Part shown: in pieces, positions 4,628 to 40,604 of the stretch
Numbering within the stretch: position 1 is the first letter of the stretch
Layout of the letters: the number at the start of each line of letters is the position of its first letter
Assembly (NCBI GenBank): GCA_903880005.1
Contig: CAIRNV010000256.1
Coordinates: forward strand, 1 to 40,604
Source of the DNA: an uncultured Verrucomicrobiota bacterium
GTDB taxonomy: Bacteria > Verrucomicrobiota > Verrucomicrobiia > Limisphaerales > UBA9464
Length of the DNA: 40,604 nucleotides
Reading direction: 5' to 3'
The notes under the pieces: generated by a model
What the model saw: only the letters and a program-made list of their open reading frames with translations
Told to the model about the DNA's origin: nothing
Database searches by the model: none
Translations under genes and position numbers: made by a program

Positions 4628-4713
4628 GCTCAACGCTGGGAGCGCGGCCGTCCCCGGCCGCCCCTCCATGCTCCCGCCATGCAGAACCGGTCAGATCCCC
4701 GCTGCCCGCCCAA
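4628..4713 (+). repeat. dispersed GC-rich repeat R2, copy a
   Basis: GCTCAACGCTGGGAGCGCGGCCGTCCCCGGCCGCCCCTCCATGCTCCCGCC...CCCCGCTGCCCGCCCA; about 5 mismatches over ~86 nt to the reverse complement of 9013-9097; internal hairpin GCGGCCG-TCCC-CGGCCGC. Confidence 0.9.
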
Positions 4714-4811
4714 ATCCCGCCAACAACACAACTCCGGGATGCGCGGATTCTTCCCCGTCAGGGCCTCGTCCCTGGCTTCGACAACGGACGGTGCCGCGAT
4801 ACGGTGGGCCC

Positions 4812-5870: not shown

Positions 5871-5949
5871 CCGGGACGATTCAGTTGGGTCGGTCGTGCT
5901 TGCTCGATCTGCTGCGCAATCACTTCCCTCCCAACTGGATCATCCCGGG
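5871..5949. mobile_element. MITE/REP-like inverted-repeat element E1 (short form)
   Basis: Termini CCGGGACGATTCAGTTGGG (5871-5889) and CCCAACTGGATCATCCCGG (about 5930-5948); both arms match the reverse complement of element 40307-40469, with the middle ~84 bp absent. Confidence 0.8.
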
Positions 5950-8134: not shown

Positions 8135-9010
8135 ATGCCGGGAATGAAGGTGACCAGGACGCCCGCGGCGATGCAGCGGTGGGCGAGGCGATGGCGCATG
8201 GAGGGCCGTCGAATTGGGTTCGTTCCGACGATGGGCTACCTGCACGAGGGCCATGTCTCGTTGATGCACGAGGCCCGGCGTCGCGTGGGGCCCGACGGCG
8301 TCGTGGTGGTGAGCATCTACGTCAACCCGACGCAGTTCGCGCCCACGGAGGACCTGGGGCGTTATCCCCGGGATTGGGCGGGCGACCAGCGCCGCTGCCG
8401 CGACGCGGGCGTCGAGGTGATCTACGCGCCCACGGACGCGGCCATGTACCCGGGCAAGGCCGACGGGCGGTACAGCACCTACGTGGTGGAGGAGCGCCTG
8501 GGGCAAGGCATGGAAGGGGCCTCGCGTCCCACCCACTTCCGGGGCGTCACCACGGTGGTGGCGAAGTTGTTCAACGCGGTGCTTCCGGACGTGGCGGTGT
8601 TCGGGGCCAAGGATTGGCAACAGGCGGCCGTCGTGCGGCGCATGACGCGGGATCTCGACTTCCCGGTGCGGATCGTCGTGGCCCCCACGCGACGGGAGCC
8701 GGACGGCTTGGCCATGAGTTCCCGCAACGTGTACCTCGCCCCGGAGGAGCGTGCCCAGGCGACGGTCCTGTTTCGTTCCATCCAGCGGGCGCGTCGCCGG
8801 GTTCGCACGGCCCCTGGGCCCGTGACCGCGGGGGCGTTGAAGTCCGAGGTCGCGGCATGGGTGGCAGGCGAGCCCTTGGCGCGGCTGGACTACGTGGAGT
8901 TTTTTGACGCGGACACGTTGGAGACGCGGGATCCCGTGACGCCCGGCACCCACATGGCCCTCGCCGTCCGGTTTGGGGGCACGCGCTTGATCGACAACGG
9001 CCGCCTGTAA
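8135..9010 (+). CDS. panC: pantothenate synthetase
   Basis: FVPTMGYLHEGHVSLMHEAR, VVSIYVNPTQFAPTEDLGRYPR, VAKLFNAVLPDVAVFGAKDWQQ, EPDGLAMSSRNVYL. Confidence 0.96.
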   Translation: MPGMKVTRTPAAMQRWARRWRMEGRRIGFVPTMGYLHEGHVSLMHEARRRVGPDGVVVVSIYVNPTQFAPTEDLGRYPRDWAGDQRRCRDAGVEVIYAPTDAAMYPGKADGRYSTYVVEERLGQGMEGASRPTHFRGVTTVVAKLFNAVLPDVAVFGAKDWQQAAVVRRMTRDLDFPVRIVVAPTRREPDGLAMSSRNVYLAPEERAQATVLFRSIQRARRRVRTAPGPVTAGALKSEVAAWVAGEPLARLDYVEFFDADTLETRDPVTPGTHMALAVRFGGTRLIDNGRL

Positions 9011-9012
9011 TC

Positions 9013-9097
9013 TGGGCGGGCAGCGGGGATGTGACCGGTCCCGCAGGGCGGGAGCATGGAGGGGCGGCCGGGGACGGCCGCGCTCCCAGGGTTGAGC
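9013..9097 (-). repeat. dispersed GC-rich repeat R2, copy b (inverted relative to copy a)
   Basis: Reverse complement GCTCAACCCTGGGAGCGCGGCCGTCCCCGGCCGCCCCTCCATGCTCCCGCCCTGCGGGACCGGTCACATCCCCGCTGCCCGCCCA is nearly identical to 4628-4713; begins right after the panC stop. Confidence 0.9.
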
Positions 9098-14453: not shown

Positions 14454-15860
14454 GTGTCCGAGCGTGAAGATTCCCCCGTCGCGGGCTCCCAGCCGTCCCG
14501 CGTTACGTCGCGTCGTCCTCGTCGTCGTCCGGCGGCGAACGGCACGGGTCCCAAGAACTACGTCCTCGACACGAACGTCCTCCTGCATGACCCGAACGCC
14601 CTGCTGAACTTCCAGGACAACCACGTCCTGGTGCCCATCGAGGTCATCGAGGAGATCGACAAGTTCAAGCGGGAGACAAGCGAGCGCGGCCAGAACGCCC
14701 GCACCGTGTCCCGTCGGCTGGACGGCCTGCGGCGCCAAGGCTCGTTGGCGGAGGGCGTCGTGCTTCCCAATGGCGGGTTGCTTCGGATCATCTTCGAGGC
14801 GCCGTCGGCGCGCTCGCGGCCCTCGCTTCCCAACGGCACGGGCACGGTGGACAACCGCATCCTGGCGTTGGCCCTGGCGGTGAGCGACGCCGAGCGCGGG
14901 CGTCCGACGATCCTGGTGACGAAGGACATCAACCTTCGCCTGAAGGCGGACGTGTATGGGTTGGACGCCGAGGACTACGAGACGGACCAGGTCAACCTGA
15001 AGGACCTCTACACCGGCTATTTCGAGGCCACCGTGCCGGCCGGGCGCCTCGCCAACTTCCGCATCCACGGCGAGGTCCCGATTCCCGAGGGGCCCAGGCG
15101 CCATGCCAACCAGTACTGCTCCCTCGTCGAGGAGGGGGCCACCAAGCGCTCGATCCTTGGCCGGGTCGATCCCACGGGGGCGCGCATCATCCCCTTGCAG
15201 GACGTGCAGAACGTCTGGGGCATCCGCCCGAAGAATCGCGAGCAACACTTCGCGTTGGATGCGCTCCTCGACGACGGGATCAAGCTCGTCACCCTCATGG
15301 GAAAGGCGGGGACGGGGAAGACGTTGCTGGCCTTGGCTGCGGGGGTGAAGAAGACGGTGGCCGACCGGGAGTTTCGTCGCCTGGTCGTCGCGCGTCCGAC
15401 GGTCTCGATGGGCAAGGAGCTGGGGTTCCTGCCGGGTTCCCTCGAGGAGAAGCTCGCGCCGTGGATGCAACCCATCCATGACGCCTTGGAGCTGCTCGGG
15501 GACCTCAACATGGGCCGGGAGAACGGGCGGACCTCCGATCTTCTGCGCTCCGGCACGATCATGGTGGAAGCGCTGAGCTACATCCGGGGCCGTTCGATCG
15601 CCCACCAGTTCATGATCATCGACGAGGCGCAAAACCTGACCCCGCTCGAGGCCAAGACGATCATCACCCGCGTGGGGCAGGGCACGAAGATCGTGCTCAC
15701 GGGCGACCCGTACCAGATCGACAACCCGTACGTGGACGCCGCCTCCAACGGCTTCACCTACATCGTCAATCGTTTCAAGGGCCAGCGTCTGTCCGCCCAC
15801 GTGGAGCTGGCCCAGGGCGAGCGCTCCGACCTCGCCGAGGTTGCGGCCAACATTCTTTAG
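14454..15860 (+). CDS. PhoH family protein, PIN domain plus PhoH ATPase
   Basis: PIN: YVLDTNVLLHDPNALLNF; PhoH: DALLDDGIKLVTLMGKAGTGKTLLALAAG, VARPTVSMGKELGFLPGSLEEKL, FMIIDEAQNLTPLEAKTIITRVGQGTKIVLTGDPYQID. GTG start. Confidence 0.95.
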   Translation: MSEREDSPVAGSQPSRVTSRRPRRRPAANGTGPKNYVLDTNVLLHDPNALLNFQDNHVLVPIEVIEEIDKFKRETSERGQNARTVSRRLDGLRRQGSLAEGVVLPNGGLLRIIFEAPSARSRPSLPNGTGTVDNRILALALAVSDAERGRPTILVTKDINLRLKADVYGLDAEDYETDQVNLKDLYTGYFEATVPAGRLANFRIHGEVPIPEGPRRHANQYCSLVEEGATKRSILGRVDPTGARIIPLQDVQNVWGIRPKNREQHFALDALLDDGIKLVTLMGKAGTGKTLLALAAGVKKTVADREFRRLVVARPTVSMGKELGFLPGSLEEKLAPWMQPIHDALELLGDLNMGRENGRTSDLLRSGTIMVEALSYIRGRSIAHQFMIIDEAQNLTPLEAKTIITRVGQGTKIVLTGDPYQIDNPYVDAASNGFTYIVNRFKGQRLSAHVELAQGERSDLAEVAANIL

Positions 15861-15953
15861 CGGGGACGATTCAAGAGGGAGGCGCGTGGCGGCGCGGCGC
15901 GCCGGGGAAGCCGATGCTCGCCTTGGGCGAAACTGCGGCGTTAGCCTCGCCTC

Positions 15954-17384: not shown

Positions 17385-17393
17385 GGGACCAAG

Positions 17394-17463
17394 GGCCGGG
17401 TGCCCTCACCCGGCGCTCGGAGGCGCGGCATCCTGGCCGCCGCGTGAGGGCACGCGGCCTACA
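17394..17463. repeat. R3 inverted repeat, copy a
   Basis: GGCCGGGTGCCCTCACCCGG (17394-) paired with CGCGTGAGGGCACGCGGCC (17441-17459), about 17/19 complementary; shares GTGAGGGCACxCGGCCTACA with 38836-38903. Confidence 0.8.
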
Positions 17464-17504
17464 TGATGGGGGGGCGTTCGGCTTCACCGGAGGGTTCGGG
17501 CGAC

Positions 17505-38007: not shown

Positions 38008-38880
38008 ATGGGAGCGGATGTCCAACTGCGATTGTTCCCGCCGGCGCGGCCCTTGGTGGATCGACTGGGGCCGGGTTGGTTCCGGGCCTTGCCGCGTTGC
38101 CCGGGTGTGTACCGCATGTTGGACGAGTCCGGGCGCGTGCTGTACGTGGGCAAGGCCTTGGACCTTCGGGTGCGTCTAGCGAGCTATCGCAGCACCCAGG
38201 GCCAGGCCCGCAAGACCGTGCGCCTCCTTCATCAAGTCGCCCGCATCGACATCGAGACCTGCCCGGATGAACCCTCCGCGCGCCTGCGGGAAAACCACCT
38301 GATCCGAACCCTTCGGCCGCCCTTCAATCGCGTTGGGACCTGGCCTCGTGCCGCGCTCTACGTCCGCGTGTCCATGGACGATTCGTGCGTCCTCCAGATC
38401 CAATGCACGCGCGAGCCCGTGCCGGGCGACTACGGCGCCTTTCGTCCGGGCGTCCGGTTGGCCTGCGCCGCGATGCAACGTCTTGGATGGCGCCTGCTGC
38501 ACCCCGGGGCATCCGCGGCGGGCATGCCTCGCGGCCTCATGTCCGAGGCCGGGCCATGGCTGTTGTGTCATCCTGCGGCGGCGGGCTGGGCTGACGCCAT
38601 CCGGGCGTATTGGTCGGGCGAGTCCCCGGGATGGGTCACGCGCTGCCTGTTCGAGTTGGCCCTGCAGGAGACTCCCTTCGACGACGCATGGACAACCCAT
38701 GACCTCGGCGTGGTGTCGGAATTCTTCGGGCGCGGGCCCGCCCGGAACCTCTGGCTGCGGGGGGTGGCGGGGGGCGAAAGGGCGCAATTGCTTCCCGAGG
38801 AACTGGATGACCTGCCCATCGTGGCGGAGCACCCGGCGCGTGAGGGCACTCGGCCTACAGCAGGTGGGGGAAATTTGTAG
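38008..38880 (+). CDS. standalone GIY-YIG nuclease, UvrC N-terminal/Cho-like
   Basis: LPRCPGVYRMLDESGRVLYVGKALDLRVRLASYR...SARLRENHLIRTLRPPFN; ~290 aa without UvrC C-terminal domains; last codons lie in inverted repeat R3b. Confidence 0.85.
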   Translation: MGADVQLRLFPPARPLVDRLGPGWFRALPRCPGVYRMLDESGRVLYVGKALDLRVRLASYRSTQGQARKTVRLLHQVARIDIETCPDEPSARLRENHLIRTLRPPFNRVGTWPRAALYVRVSMDDSCVLQIQCTREPVPGDYGAFRPGVRLACAAMQRLGWRLLHPGASAAGMPRGLMSEAGPWLLCHPAAAGWADAIRAYWSGESPGWVTRCLFELALQETPFDDAWTTHDLGVVSEFFGRGPARNLWLRGVAGGERAQLLPEELDDLPIVAEHPAREGTRPTAGGGNL

Positions 38881-38903
38881 GTCGGGTGCCCTCACCCGGC
38901 GTG
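38836..38903. repeat. R3 inverted repeat, copy b
   Basis: GGCGCGTGAGGGCACTCGGCCTACA (38836-38859 region) / TGTAGGTCGGGTGCCCTCACCCGGC (38876-38900), about 21/24 complementary. Confidence 0.85.
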
Positions 38904-38991
38904 CGGGGATGCGGCACGGGCGAGCCGTCCGGGTTGGGATCCAGTTCGGCCTTCCTCCCGCCCTTGCCTCCGGCTTTCATCGGGGCACTCC

Positions 38992-40305
38992 ATGAAATGC
39001 TTTTCCACCCCGGCTTGCTGGATGGCGGCCGCGTTGTTCCTTGGCTCGGCCCGGGCCGAATTCCAGATCCGCAACGGCGACCGCGTCGTGTTCCTCGGCG
39101 ACAGCATCACCGAGCAACGTCTCTACACCACCTACGTGGAGGCCTATGCCACCACCCGAAACCCCGGCTGGCGCCTCCAATTCCGCAACGTCGGCTGGGG
39201 CGGCGACACGTCATGGCTGCGTCAACGCGCGCATCCCGACGAGGGCCAGTTGTTTCGATCCGAGGGCGCCGACTTGGCTCAGCGGGTCACCGATGCCGTC
39301 GAGAAGGGCCTCGGGCGGGACGTCCTCCCGCTCAAGCCCACCTTCGTCACGGTGAAGTTCGGGATGAACGACCACTCCTATCAGAAGTTTCGCCCCGACA
39401 TCTTCCGCGCCTACACCAACAGCCAGGCCCAGATCGCATCCGTCCTCTCCAAGCATGGCGCCCGCGTGACATTCCTGACGCCGCAACCCATCGAGGAACG
39501 GCGTCCTGATCCGGACCAGGACGACCGGAACGCCTCGCTGCGGCGGTTTTCCGATGGGCTCGGCGAGGTCGCGCGGGCCACCGGTAGTGGCTACGTGGAC
39601 CAGTTCGCTCCCTTCATGAAGCTGATGCTGGACGCCCGCAGCGCCGACCCGAAGGCCTTCATCGGCGGCGGCGATGCCGTTCATCCTGGCCCCTCGGGTC
39701 AGACCCTCATGGCGTGGGCCGTCCTCAAGGGCCTCGGTGCCACCCCCATGGTTGCCTCGGCCGACATCGACGTCGGCAGCAAGTCCGTGAAGGCCGTCGC
39801 CTGCCAGGTCACCGGCGTCACCGTGAACGGCTCCACCCTCGCCTTTGACCGTCGTGACGGCTCCTTGCCCATGCCCATCGACGCGCGTGCCGAGGATGCC
39901 CTCAAGCGCGCTCCCATCCTCGAGGATCTCAGCCGGCTCATGCTCGTCGTGTCGGGGCTTCCCGCGGGCGAGTACGAGGTGCTCATCGACGACCAACCCG
40001 TGGCCAAGGTGGATGCCGCGACGTTGGCCAAGGGTTGGAACTACTCCAACGTCGCGGGCCCCATCACCCGGCAGGCGCGCGAGGTCCTCGCCGCCATCTT
40101 CGGCAAGAACGACCGCTACTTTGCCCGCTGGCGCGACGTCCAGCTCCATCGCTTCCCCGGCTGGGCCAACGGACCCGAGATCGAGTCCCGCCGCGAGGCC
40201 GAGCTCAAGCGACTCGATGCAGCCATCGCCGAGGCCGAGAATCGCATCGCGGAGCTCAACAAGCCCCAGACCCATCACTTCGTCATCCGCCCCGCCAAGC
40301 CCTGA
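38992..40305 (+). CDS. secreted SGNH/GDSL hydrolase
   Basis: Signal peptide; VVFLGDSITEQ, NVGWGGDT, VKFGMNDHSY, DAVHPGPSGQ. Confidence 0.92.
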   Translation: MKCFSTPACWMAAALFLGSARAEFQIRNGDRVVFLGDSITEQRLYTTYVEAYATTRNPGWRLQFRNVGWGGDTSWLRQRAHPDEGQLFRSEGADLAQRVTDAVEKGLGRDVLPLKPTFVTVKFGMNDHSYQKFRPDIFRAYTNSQAQIASVLSKHGARVTFLTPQPIEERRPDPDQDDRNASLRRFSDGLGEVARATGSGYVDQFAPFMKLMLDARSADPKAFIGGGDAVHPGPSGQTLMAWAVLKGLGATPMVASADIDVGSKSVKAVACQVTGVTVNGSTLAFDRRDGSLPMPIDARAEDALKRAPILEDLSRLMLVVSGLPAGEYEVLIDDQPVAKVDAATLAKGWNYSNVAGPITRQAREVLAAIFGKNDRYFARWRDVQLHRFPGWANGPEIESRREAELKRLDAAIAEAENRIAELNKPQTHHFVIRPAKP

Positions 40306-40306
40306 G

Positions 40307-40469
40307 CCGGGACGATGCAGTTGGGAGGGAAGTGATTGCGCCGCATATTCTTTTGCAAGACGAGGAGTGAGCGAGGCGCGGGCCGGTACGAGGCCCATAA
40401 CGAGCGAAGGACGAAGCTCTTGCCAAAGAAGATCCAGCAAGCCCGACCGACCCAACTGAATCGTTCCGG
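40307..40469. mobile_element. MITE/REP-like nested inverted-repeat element E2 (long form)
   Basis: Outer TIRs CCGGGACGATGCAGTTGGG (40307-40325) / CCCAACTGAATCGTTCCGG (40451-40469); inner IRs TCTTTTGCAAGA (40349-40360) / TCTTGCCAAAGA (40418-40429); central GGGCC-GGTACGA-GGCCC (40380-40396). Confidence 0.85.
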
Positions 40470-40604
40470 CTAAGGCTTTGGATCTTTCCGTGCCACGACG
40501 AACGCGTTGAACAGCCCGTATCGCAGCGGCGTGGCATTGAGCAGCCTGTCCAACCACCGCTGCACGTGGCGATCCGTGCACGCCGACAACTCGATCGTGC
40601 AGCC
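40470..40604 (-). CDS. 3' end of a CDS running off the window, possibly a SAM-dependent methyltransferase C-terminus
   Basis: Open frame GCTIELSACTDRHVQRWLDRLLNATPLRYGLFNAFVVARKDPKP*; stop abuts element E2. Product assignment weak. Confidence 0.5.
   Translation of the reverse strand, partial: GCTIELSACTDRHVQRWLDRLLNATPLRYGLFNAFVVARKDPKP

Follow-up and report, generated by a model that had tools for sequence, protein, structure and literature searches.

A high-copy MITE family, probably mobilized in trans by IS1380-family transposases, in the genome of an uncultured Verrucomicrobiota bacterium

RUP elements, which are thought to be mobilized in trans by IS630-Spn1 (PMC2229807), represent the classic bacterial MITE that is moved by an insertion sequence (IS). 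Like Correia/NEMIS MITEs, they share with the repeat described here a length of ∼100–170 bp, terminal repeats, a mostly intergenic location, and a high copy number. Unlike both groups, the present family is G+C-rich, is linked to another transposase family, and has CTNAG rather than TA as its target. REP/BIME sequences and GTAG-tagged REPs are likewise palindromic, extragenic, and located at gene ends, and GTAG-tagged REPs also resemble this MITE in supplying stop codons to genes (PMC3733652). However, the MITE is much longer than these repeats, carries a target duplication of the DDE type, and has no association with RAYT genes. In its terminal repeats (CCGGAACGATTCAGTTG) and its 5-bp CTNAG duplication, the MITE resembles full elements of the IS1380 family in Verrucomicrobiota; IS1247, which belongs to this family, is reported to have a 5-bp duplication (PMC3281130). 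Unlike these elements, the MITE has no transposase gene, and its identity with the resident IS is limited to the terminal ∼17 bp. The papers searched contain no description of an IS1380-derived MITE or of a transposon with a CTNAG target. The MITE represents a new family within a familiar class of mobile DNA.

The copy described here lies near the end of the window, by which we mean the whole 40,604-nucleotide stretch of DNA that was analyzed. The relevant features of the window are as follows.

40307–40469, + strand: MITE copy, 163 bp, CCGG...CCGG
40302–40306: left target duplication CTGAG, containing the TGA stop of the SGNH gene (40303–40305)
40470–40474: right target duplication CTAAG, containing the TAG stop of the convergent frame (40470–40472, minus strand)
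40307–40324, + strand: left terminal inverted repeat, common to IS1380
40452–40469, − strand: right terminal inverted repeat
40348–40359, + strand: 5′ arm of the inner stem (covarying helix 2)
40419–40430, + strand: 3′ arm of the inner stem (covarying helix 2)
40379–40384, + strand: 5′ arm of the central hairpin (covarying helix 3)
40392–40397, + strand: 3′ arm of the central hairpin (covarying helix 3)
40360–40378, + strand: unpaired purine-rich block ACGAGGAGTGAGCGAGGCG, near-invariant in the alignment of copies
40398–40418, + strand: second conserved unpaired block in the alignment of copies, ATAACGAGCGAAGGACGAAGC in the window copy
38992–40305, + strand: SGNH/GDSL hydrolase gene (Pfam Lipase_GDSL_2), with its stop in the left duplication
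40470–40604, − strand: convergent open frame that ends at the contig edge, with its stop in the right duplication
5871–5948, − strand: 78-bp short form of the same MITE family, after a CTTAG containing the upstream gene's stop
15856–15893, + strand: decayed end of a further MITE copy, directly at a TAG stop

A first-pass annotation had placed a 163-bp element at 40306–40470. The length was correct, but the exact boundaries are 40307–40469, with the flanking pentamers being target duplications. As that annotation stated, position 40305 is the last base of the SGNH gene's TGA, and the stop codon of the minus-strand frame (CTA) starts at 40470. It also described imperfect terminal inverted repeats of 19 bp; imperfect repeats are present, with 18 of 22 positions matching in this copy. 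The second inverted-repeat pair and central hairpin that it reported inside the element correspond to the inner stem and hairpin listed above, and the absence of coding potential holds for both the 163-bp and the 78-bp forms, neither of which carries a gene of its own. The fold of the window copy is far stronger than that of shuffled sequences (−79.1 versus −55.8 kcal/mol, z = −5.9), and none of 200 shuffles was as low.

This 163-bp sequence is one of hundreds of MITE copies. The terminal motif has 406 forward and 390 reverse matches (796 in total) in the organism's own genome (5.02 Mb, 492 contigs), whereas the reversed control gave none on either strand. Thus the sequence is not single-copy outside the window, and the copy count is a lower bound, because many contigs start or stop within a copy. 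A sequence search of this genome recovered many copies with 85%–96% identity. A 1.06-Mb sample, consisting of the window plus contigs picked for containing matches, holds 102 copies of full length, of which 82 belong to the 163-bp class and 20 to the 78-bp class, and MITE matches make up 1.8% of its length. Copy boundaries are conserved: 41 of the first 53 copies are exactly 163 bp long and have the same ends. The family therefore has the properties by which MITEs are recognized, namely a length below ∼300 bp, no coding capacity, terminal repeats shared with an IS, duplications of fixed length, and dispersal in multiple copies.

The two size classes differ by 85 bp, which the 163-bp form carries as an insert at AGAT. 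This AGAT is repeated on both sides of the insert, which has 11-bp inverted ends (GCTTTCGCAAG...CTTGCGAAAGC). The 85-bp part looks like a nested insertion, or else the 78-bp form looks like the product of a deletion between the AGAT repeats. The idea that the inner 81-bp part exists as a separate element was rejected, since the 1.06-Mb sample contains just three weak fragments of it that are not within full copies.

Copies are flanked by direct 5-bp CTNAG repeats. Among 52 copies, the middle base agrees directly in 31 and is complementary in 5. For solo copies with a perfect CTNAG on both sides, the middle base agrees in 14 of 24 cases versus 6.5 expected (p = 0.0013). Direct agreement rather than complementarity indicates that the pentamer is not part of the inverted repeat. 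Moreover, some copies have the same off-consensus pentamer on both sides (CTAGA, TTAAG, CTAAT, or CCAAG), which indicates that all five bases derive from the target. Identical CTNAG flanks were found for six of six copies examined in congener G007, and the duplications of the window copy differ at one base (CTGAG/CTAAG). Adjoining copies have one CTNAG in common, as would fit insertion into an existing duplication. One such arrangement occurs at L095:1-610 (G000:C31), where two tandem MITE copies with a common CTAAG are followed directly by a truncated fragment of a DDE transposase.

In congener G004, the orthologous interval does not contain the copy located at C35:23616-23778, with flanks too diverged for the 5-bp duplication to be resolved base by base. 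No strict empty site exists for the window copy, as the SGNH orthologues of congeners have not retained the downstream neighbor. The orthologue in congener G006 ends in CTGAG and has no element there.

Among the PF01609 loci of the organism's own genome, one (L087, G000:C131) has a right end of the MITE type, CAACTGAATCGTTACGG, followed by CTAAG. This right end is preceded by a 463-amino-acid open frame whose product is assigned to IS1380 by NCBIfam NF033539 (242.4 bits, cut-off 180) and also matches Pfam DDE_Tnp_1_4. It is the only complete transposase gene of its type in this genome, and its left IS end is cut off by the contig boundary. A left end of the resident IS occurs at three places and is preceded by CTAAG on two other contigs; these contigs stop inside the IS, and the gene and right end reside on a separate contig. 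The IS is present in about three copies versus hundreds for the MITE. Relatives of the L087 protein in named genomes are mostly from Verrucomicrobiota. Complete IS1380 relatives are ∼1.5 kb in length and have the same type of ends as the MITE, and exact CTTAG, CTAAG, or CTGAG duplications flank seven of them (L143, L144, L145, L146, L148, L150, and L153).

The terminal ends and CTNAG duplications common to the MITE and IS1380 make it most likely that the MITE is mobilized by IS1380. On the basis of these sequence features, we consider it highly probable (roughly 0.93) that the window feature is a copy of a high-copy MITE mobilized in trans by an IS1380-family DDE transposase. In the mechanism we propose, the transposase would recognize the ∼17-bp terminal repeats CCGKAACGATKCAGTTG and insert the element into CTNAG, thereby duplicating these five bases. 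The resident IS1380 protein probably moved these copies and probably still does so. Counting against this view, several relatives have the MITE but yielded no IS1380 gene of the resident type. Neither end type was found around transposase loci L134, L135, and L137 of genomes G046 and G039.

Other candidate non-autonomous elements with such ends were also encountered. Loci L069 and L077 of G039 hold a different MITE-like element of 185–187 bp, with IS1380-type ends CCGGAACGATTCAGTTGA and an unrelated interior around GGAACGCCGGATTCATCCGGC. At L238:1493-1873 (G029:C11), an IS1380-type left end CTCAGCCGGAACGATTCAGTTGAAATGGAGAGGC is followed by sequence with no reported transposase match, possibly another non-autonomous derivative.

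The first-pass annotation had correctly suggested a non-autonomous mobile element of the MITE type, as judged from copy number, ends, and 5-bp duplications, and had suggested searching for a RAYT or transposase gene flanked by the same termini; L087 carries one of these, the right end. It had also offered a RAYT-mobilized family with REP/BIME architecture; the corresponding rival is a REP/BIME or REPIN-like sequence whose movement depends on a RAYT (Y1 HUH) transposase. Such an origin would suit a palindromic, extragenic, high-copy repeat at gene ends in a genome that contains Y1_Tnp genes, and GTAG-tagged REPs, which often give flanking genes a stop codon, are abundant in the verrucomicrobial O. 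terrae (PMC3733652). However, the element termini occur at none of the 30 Y1_Tnp loci examined, whereas ends of the MITE type occur at an IS1380-family locus, and RAYT was rejected as the mobilizer. A 5-bp direct target duplication, as found on the MITE, is typical of DDE elements and is unexpected for HUH/RAYT elements. REP/BIME units are palindromes of 20–40 nt with no DDE-type duplication, versus 163 bp and 5-bp duplications here. We regard movement by RAYT as extremely improbable. Matches to Y1_Tnp (RAYT type) number 30 in relative G046 versus 2 in the organism's own genome.

The positions of copies relative to genes were tabulated using a simple codon-usage caller written for this analysis, so gene calls are approximate. 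Only 2 copies are inside genes, though 87% of the 1.06-Mb sample is coding. By gap type, copies number 29 convergent, 50 tandem, and 7 divergent. Relative to the expectation from gap length, convergent gaps are enriched and divergent (promoter) gaps are depleted (chi-square = 26.5, p = 1.8 × 10−6), and the previously suspected bias toward 3′ ends and convergent gaps is real.

Could the transposase target stop codons as such, as a safe-haven strategy? The duplication contains a stop codon in 32 of 86 copies (37%), compared with 34 of the 144 CTNAG sites that are free and non-interior (Fisher p = 0.035). A or T as the middle base is strongly preferred. In non-coding DNA, an element fills about three quarters of such sites (47 copies, 14 free), versus 18 copies and more than 110 free sites for C or G. 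Although these values are in the direction expected of stop-codon targeting, the excess over free sites is modest and in part due to selection, CTWAG is scarce in an element-free congener as well, and many copies are intergenic and distant from stops. We therefore judge stop-codon targeting to be unlikely. A depletion of free CTWAG sites (11 versus 24 per 100 kb in the element-free congener) was also considered and set aside, since counts are small and other pentamers are lower too.

Rather than recognition of stop codons, the availability of CTNAG together with purifying selection explains most of the location pattern. In this G+C-rich genome, non-coding CTNAG sites are scarce and many are at stop codons. 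Insertion at C-TAA-G, C-TGA-G (C-TNA-G), or CT-TAG keeps the gene's stop codon intact, and insertions inside genes and promoters would be purged, such that copies accumulate at gene ends. If this explanation is correct, then the gene-end location of such repeats requires no regulatory role.

The structured body could still have been co-opted by the host as a 3′-end device, such as a terminator, an mRNA stabilizer, or a processing signal. The location of copies at gene 3′ ends and the strong fold of the window copy are in keeping with such a role, as are data from an alignment of 32 copies from several genomes. A three-helix fold leaves 94.8% of the cells of this alignment paired, and both sides have changed in 18 of its 36 pairs. 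The covariation score is 0.373 versus 0.166 for shuffles, and the purine-rich blocks between helices are almost invariant. The cross-genome covariation thus seemed supportive of an RNA function, but observations within the genome argue against it. One-sided mismatches of the G-T kind (35) are as frequent as those of the A-C kind (31; both capped per site). The 163-bp form shows no orientation bias relative to neighboring genes: tandem gaps hold 18 sense and 24 antisense copies, and the corresponding numbers at stop codons are 15 and 12. Equal mismatch classes and the absence of strand bias indicate that single copies are not maintained as RNA hairpins. In addition, no terminator-like site (a G+C-rich hairpin followed by a T run) was found on either strand, and MITE copies are few or absent in most congeners. 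The bidirectional terminator or 3′-end stabilizer proposed earlier is not borne out by these results, and a host function of this kind appears improbable. Instead, the pairing looks like a property of a mobile DNA palindrome. A simpler reading of the covariation would be that matched arms are renewed in the propagating lineage, either through arm-to-arm template correction or through a need for a DNA hairpin.

The arms do change as matched pairs, for example CGGGCC/GGCCCG and TCCCGC/GCGGGA, around the two near-invariant unpaired blocks. The 163-bp form is found in other genera and in another family of the order, and from this sharing we infer that it is old. An exact match to the conserved core was confined to the organism's own genome among 388 genomes across the phylum, and the conserved-core pattern had no exact match in viral contigs. 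An Rfam search gave no match above chance. Within one genus, the same body carries either of two end types, CCGGAACGATGCAGTTGG or CCGTATCCATGCAGTAGG, with both termini of the matching type. Matched end types are consistent with ends that follow different IS1380 transposases. More speculatively, and with the odds clearly against it, the MITE body may be a lineage of its own that endures across families of the order and exchanges or co-evolves ends with different IS1380 transposases while its arms are renewed as pairs. Such renewal would be expected if an extruded DNA hairpin, or the binding of a host factor to the blocks, were required for propagation.

These data pair a highly abundant repeat family in an uncultured lineage with one particular family of transposases and with an exact rule for the target. 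The CTNAG rule and the ends together form a clear signature for automatic annotation. With hundreds of copies, one target rule, and ends that change in step, the system offers a possible means of examining how non-autonomous elements keep pace with transposases that change.

The window contains two additional repeat families. One is palindromic and occurs at 17386–17480 and 38833–38916, with a core GTGAGGGCACGCGGCCTACA that pairs with GGTCGGGTGCCCTCACCCGGCG. This core has 34 matches (≤3 mismatches) in the 1.06-Mb sample and none in shuffled sequence, and its 95-bp unit gives 27 BLAST hits. The other, at 4628–4715 and 9010–9097, is an 88-bp inverted pair whose members are 93% alike; it contains a GCGGCCGTCCCCGGCCGC palindrome and gives 20 BLAST hits in the 1.06-Mb sample.
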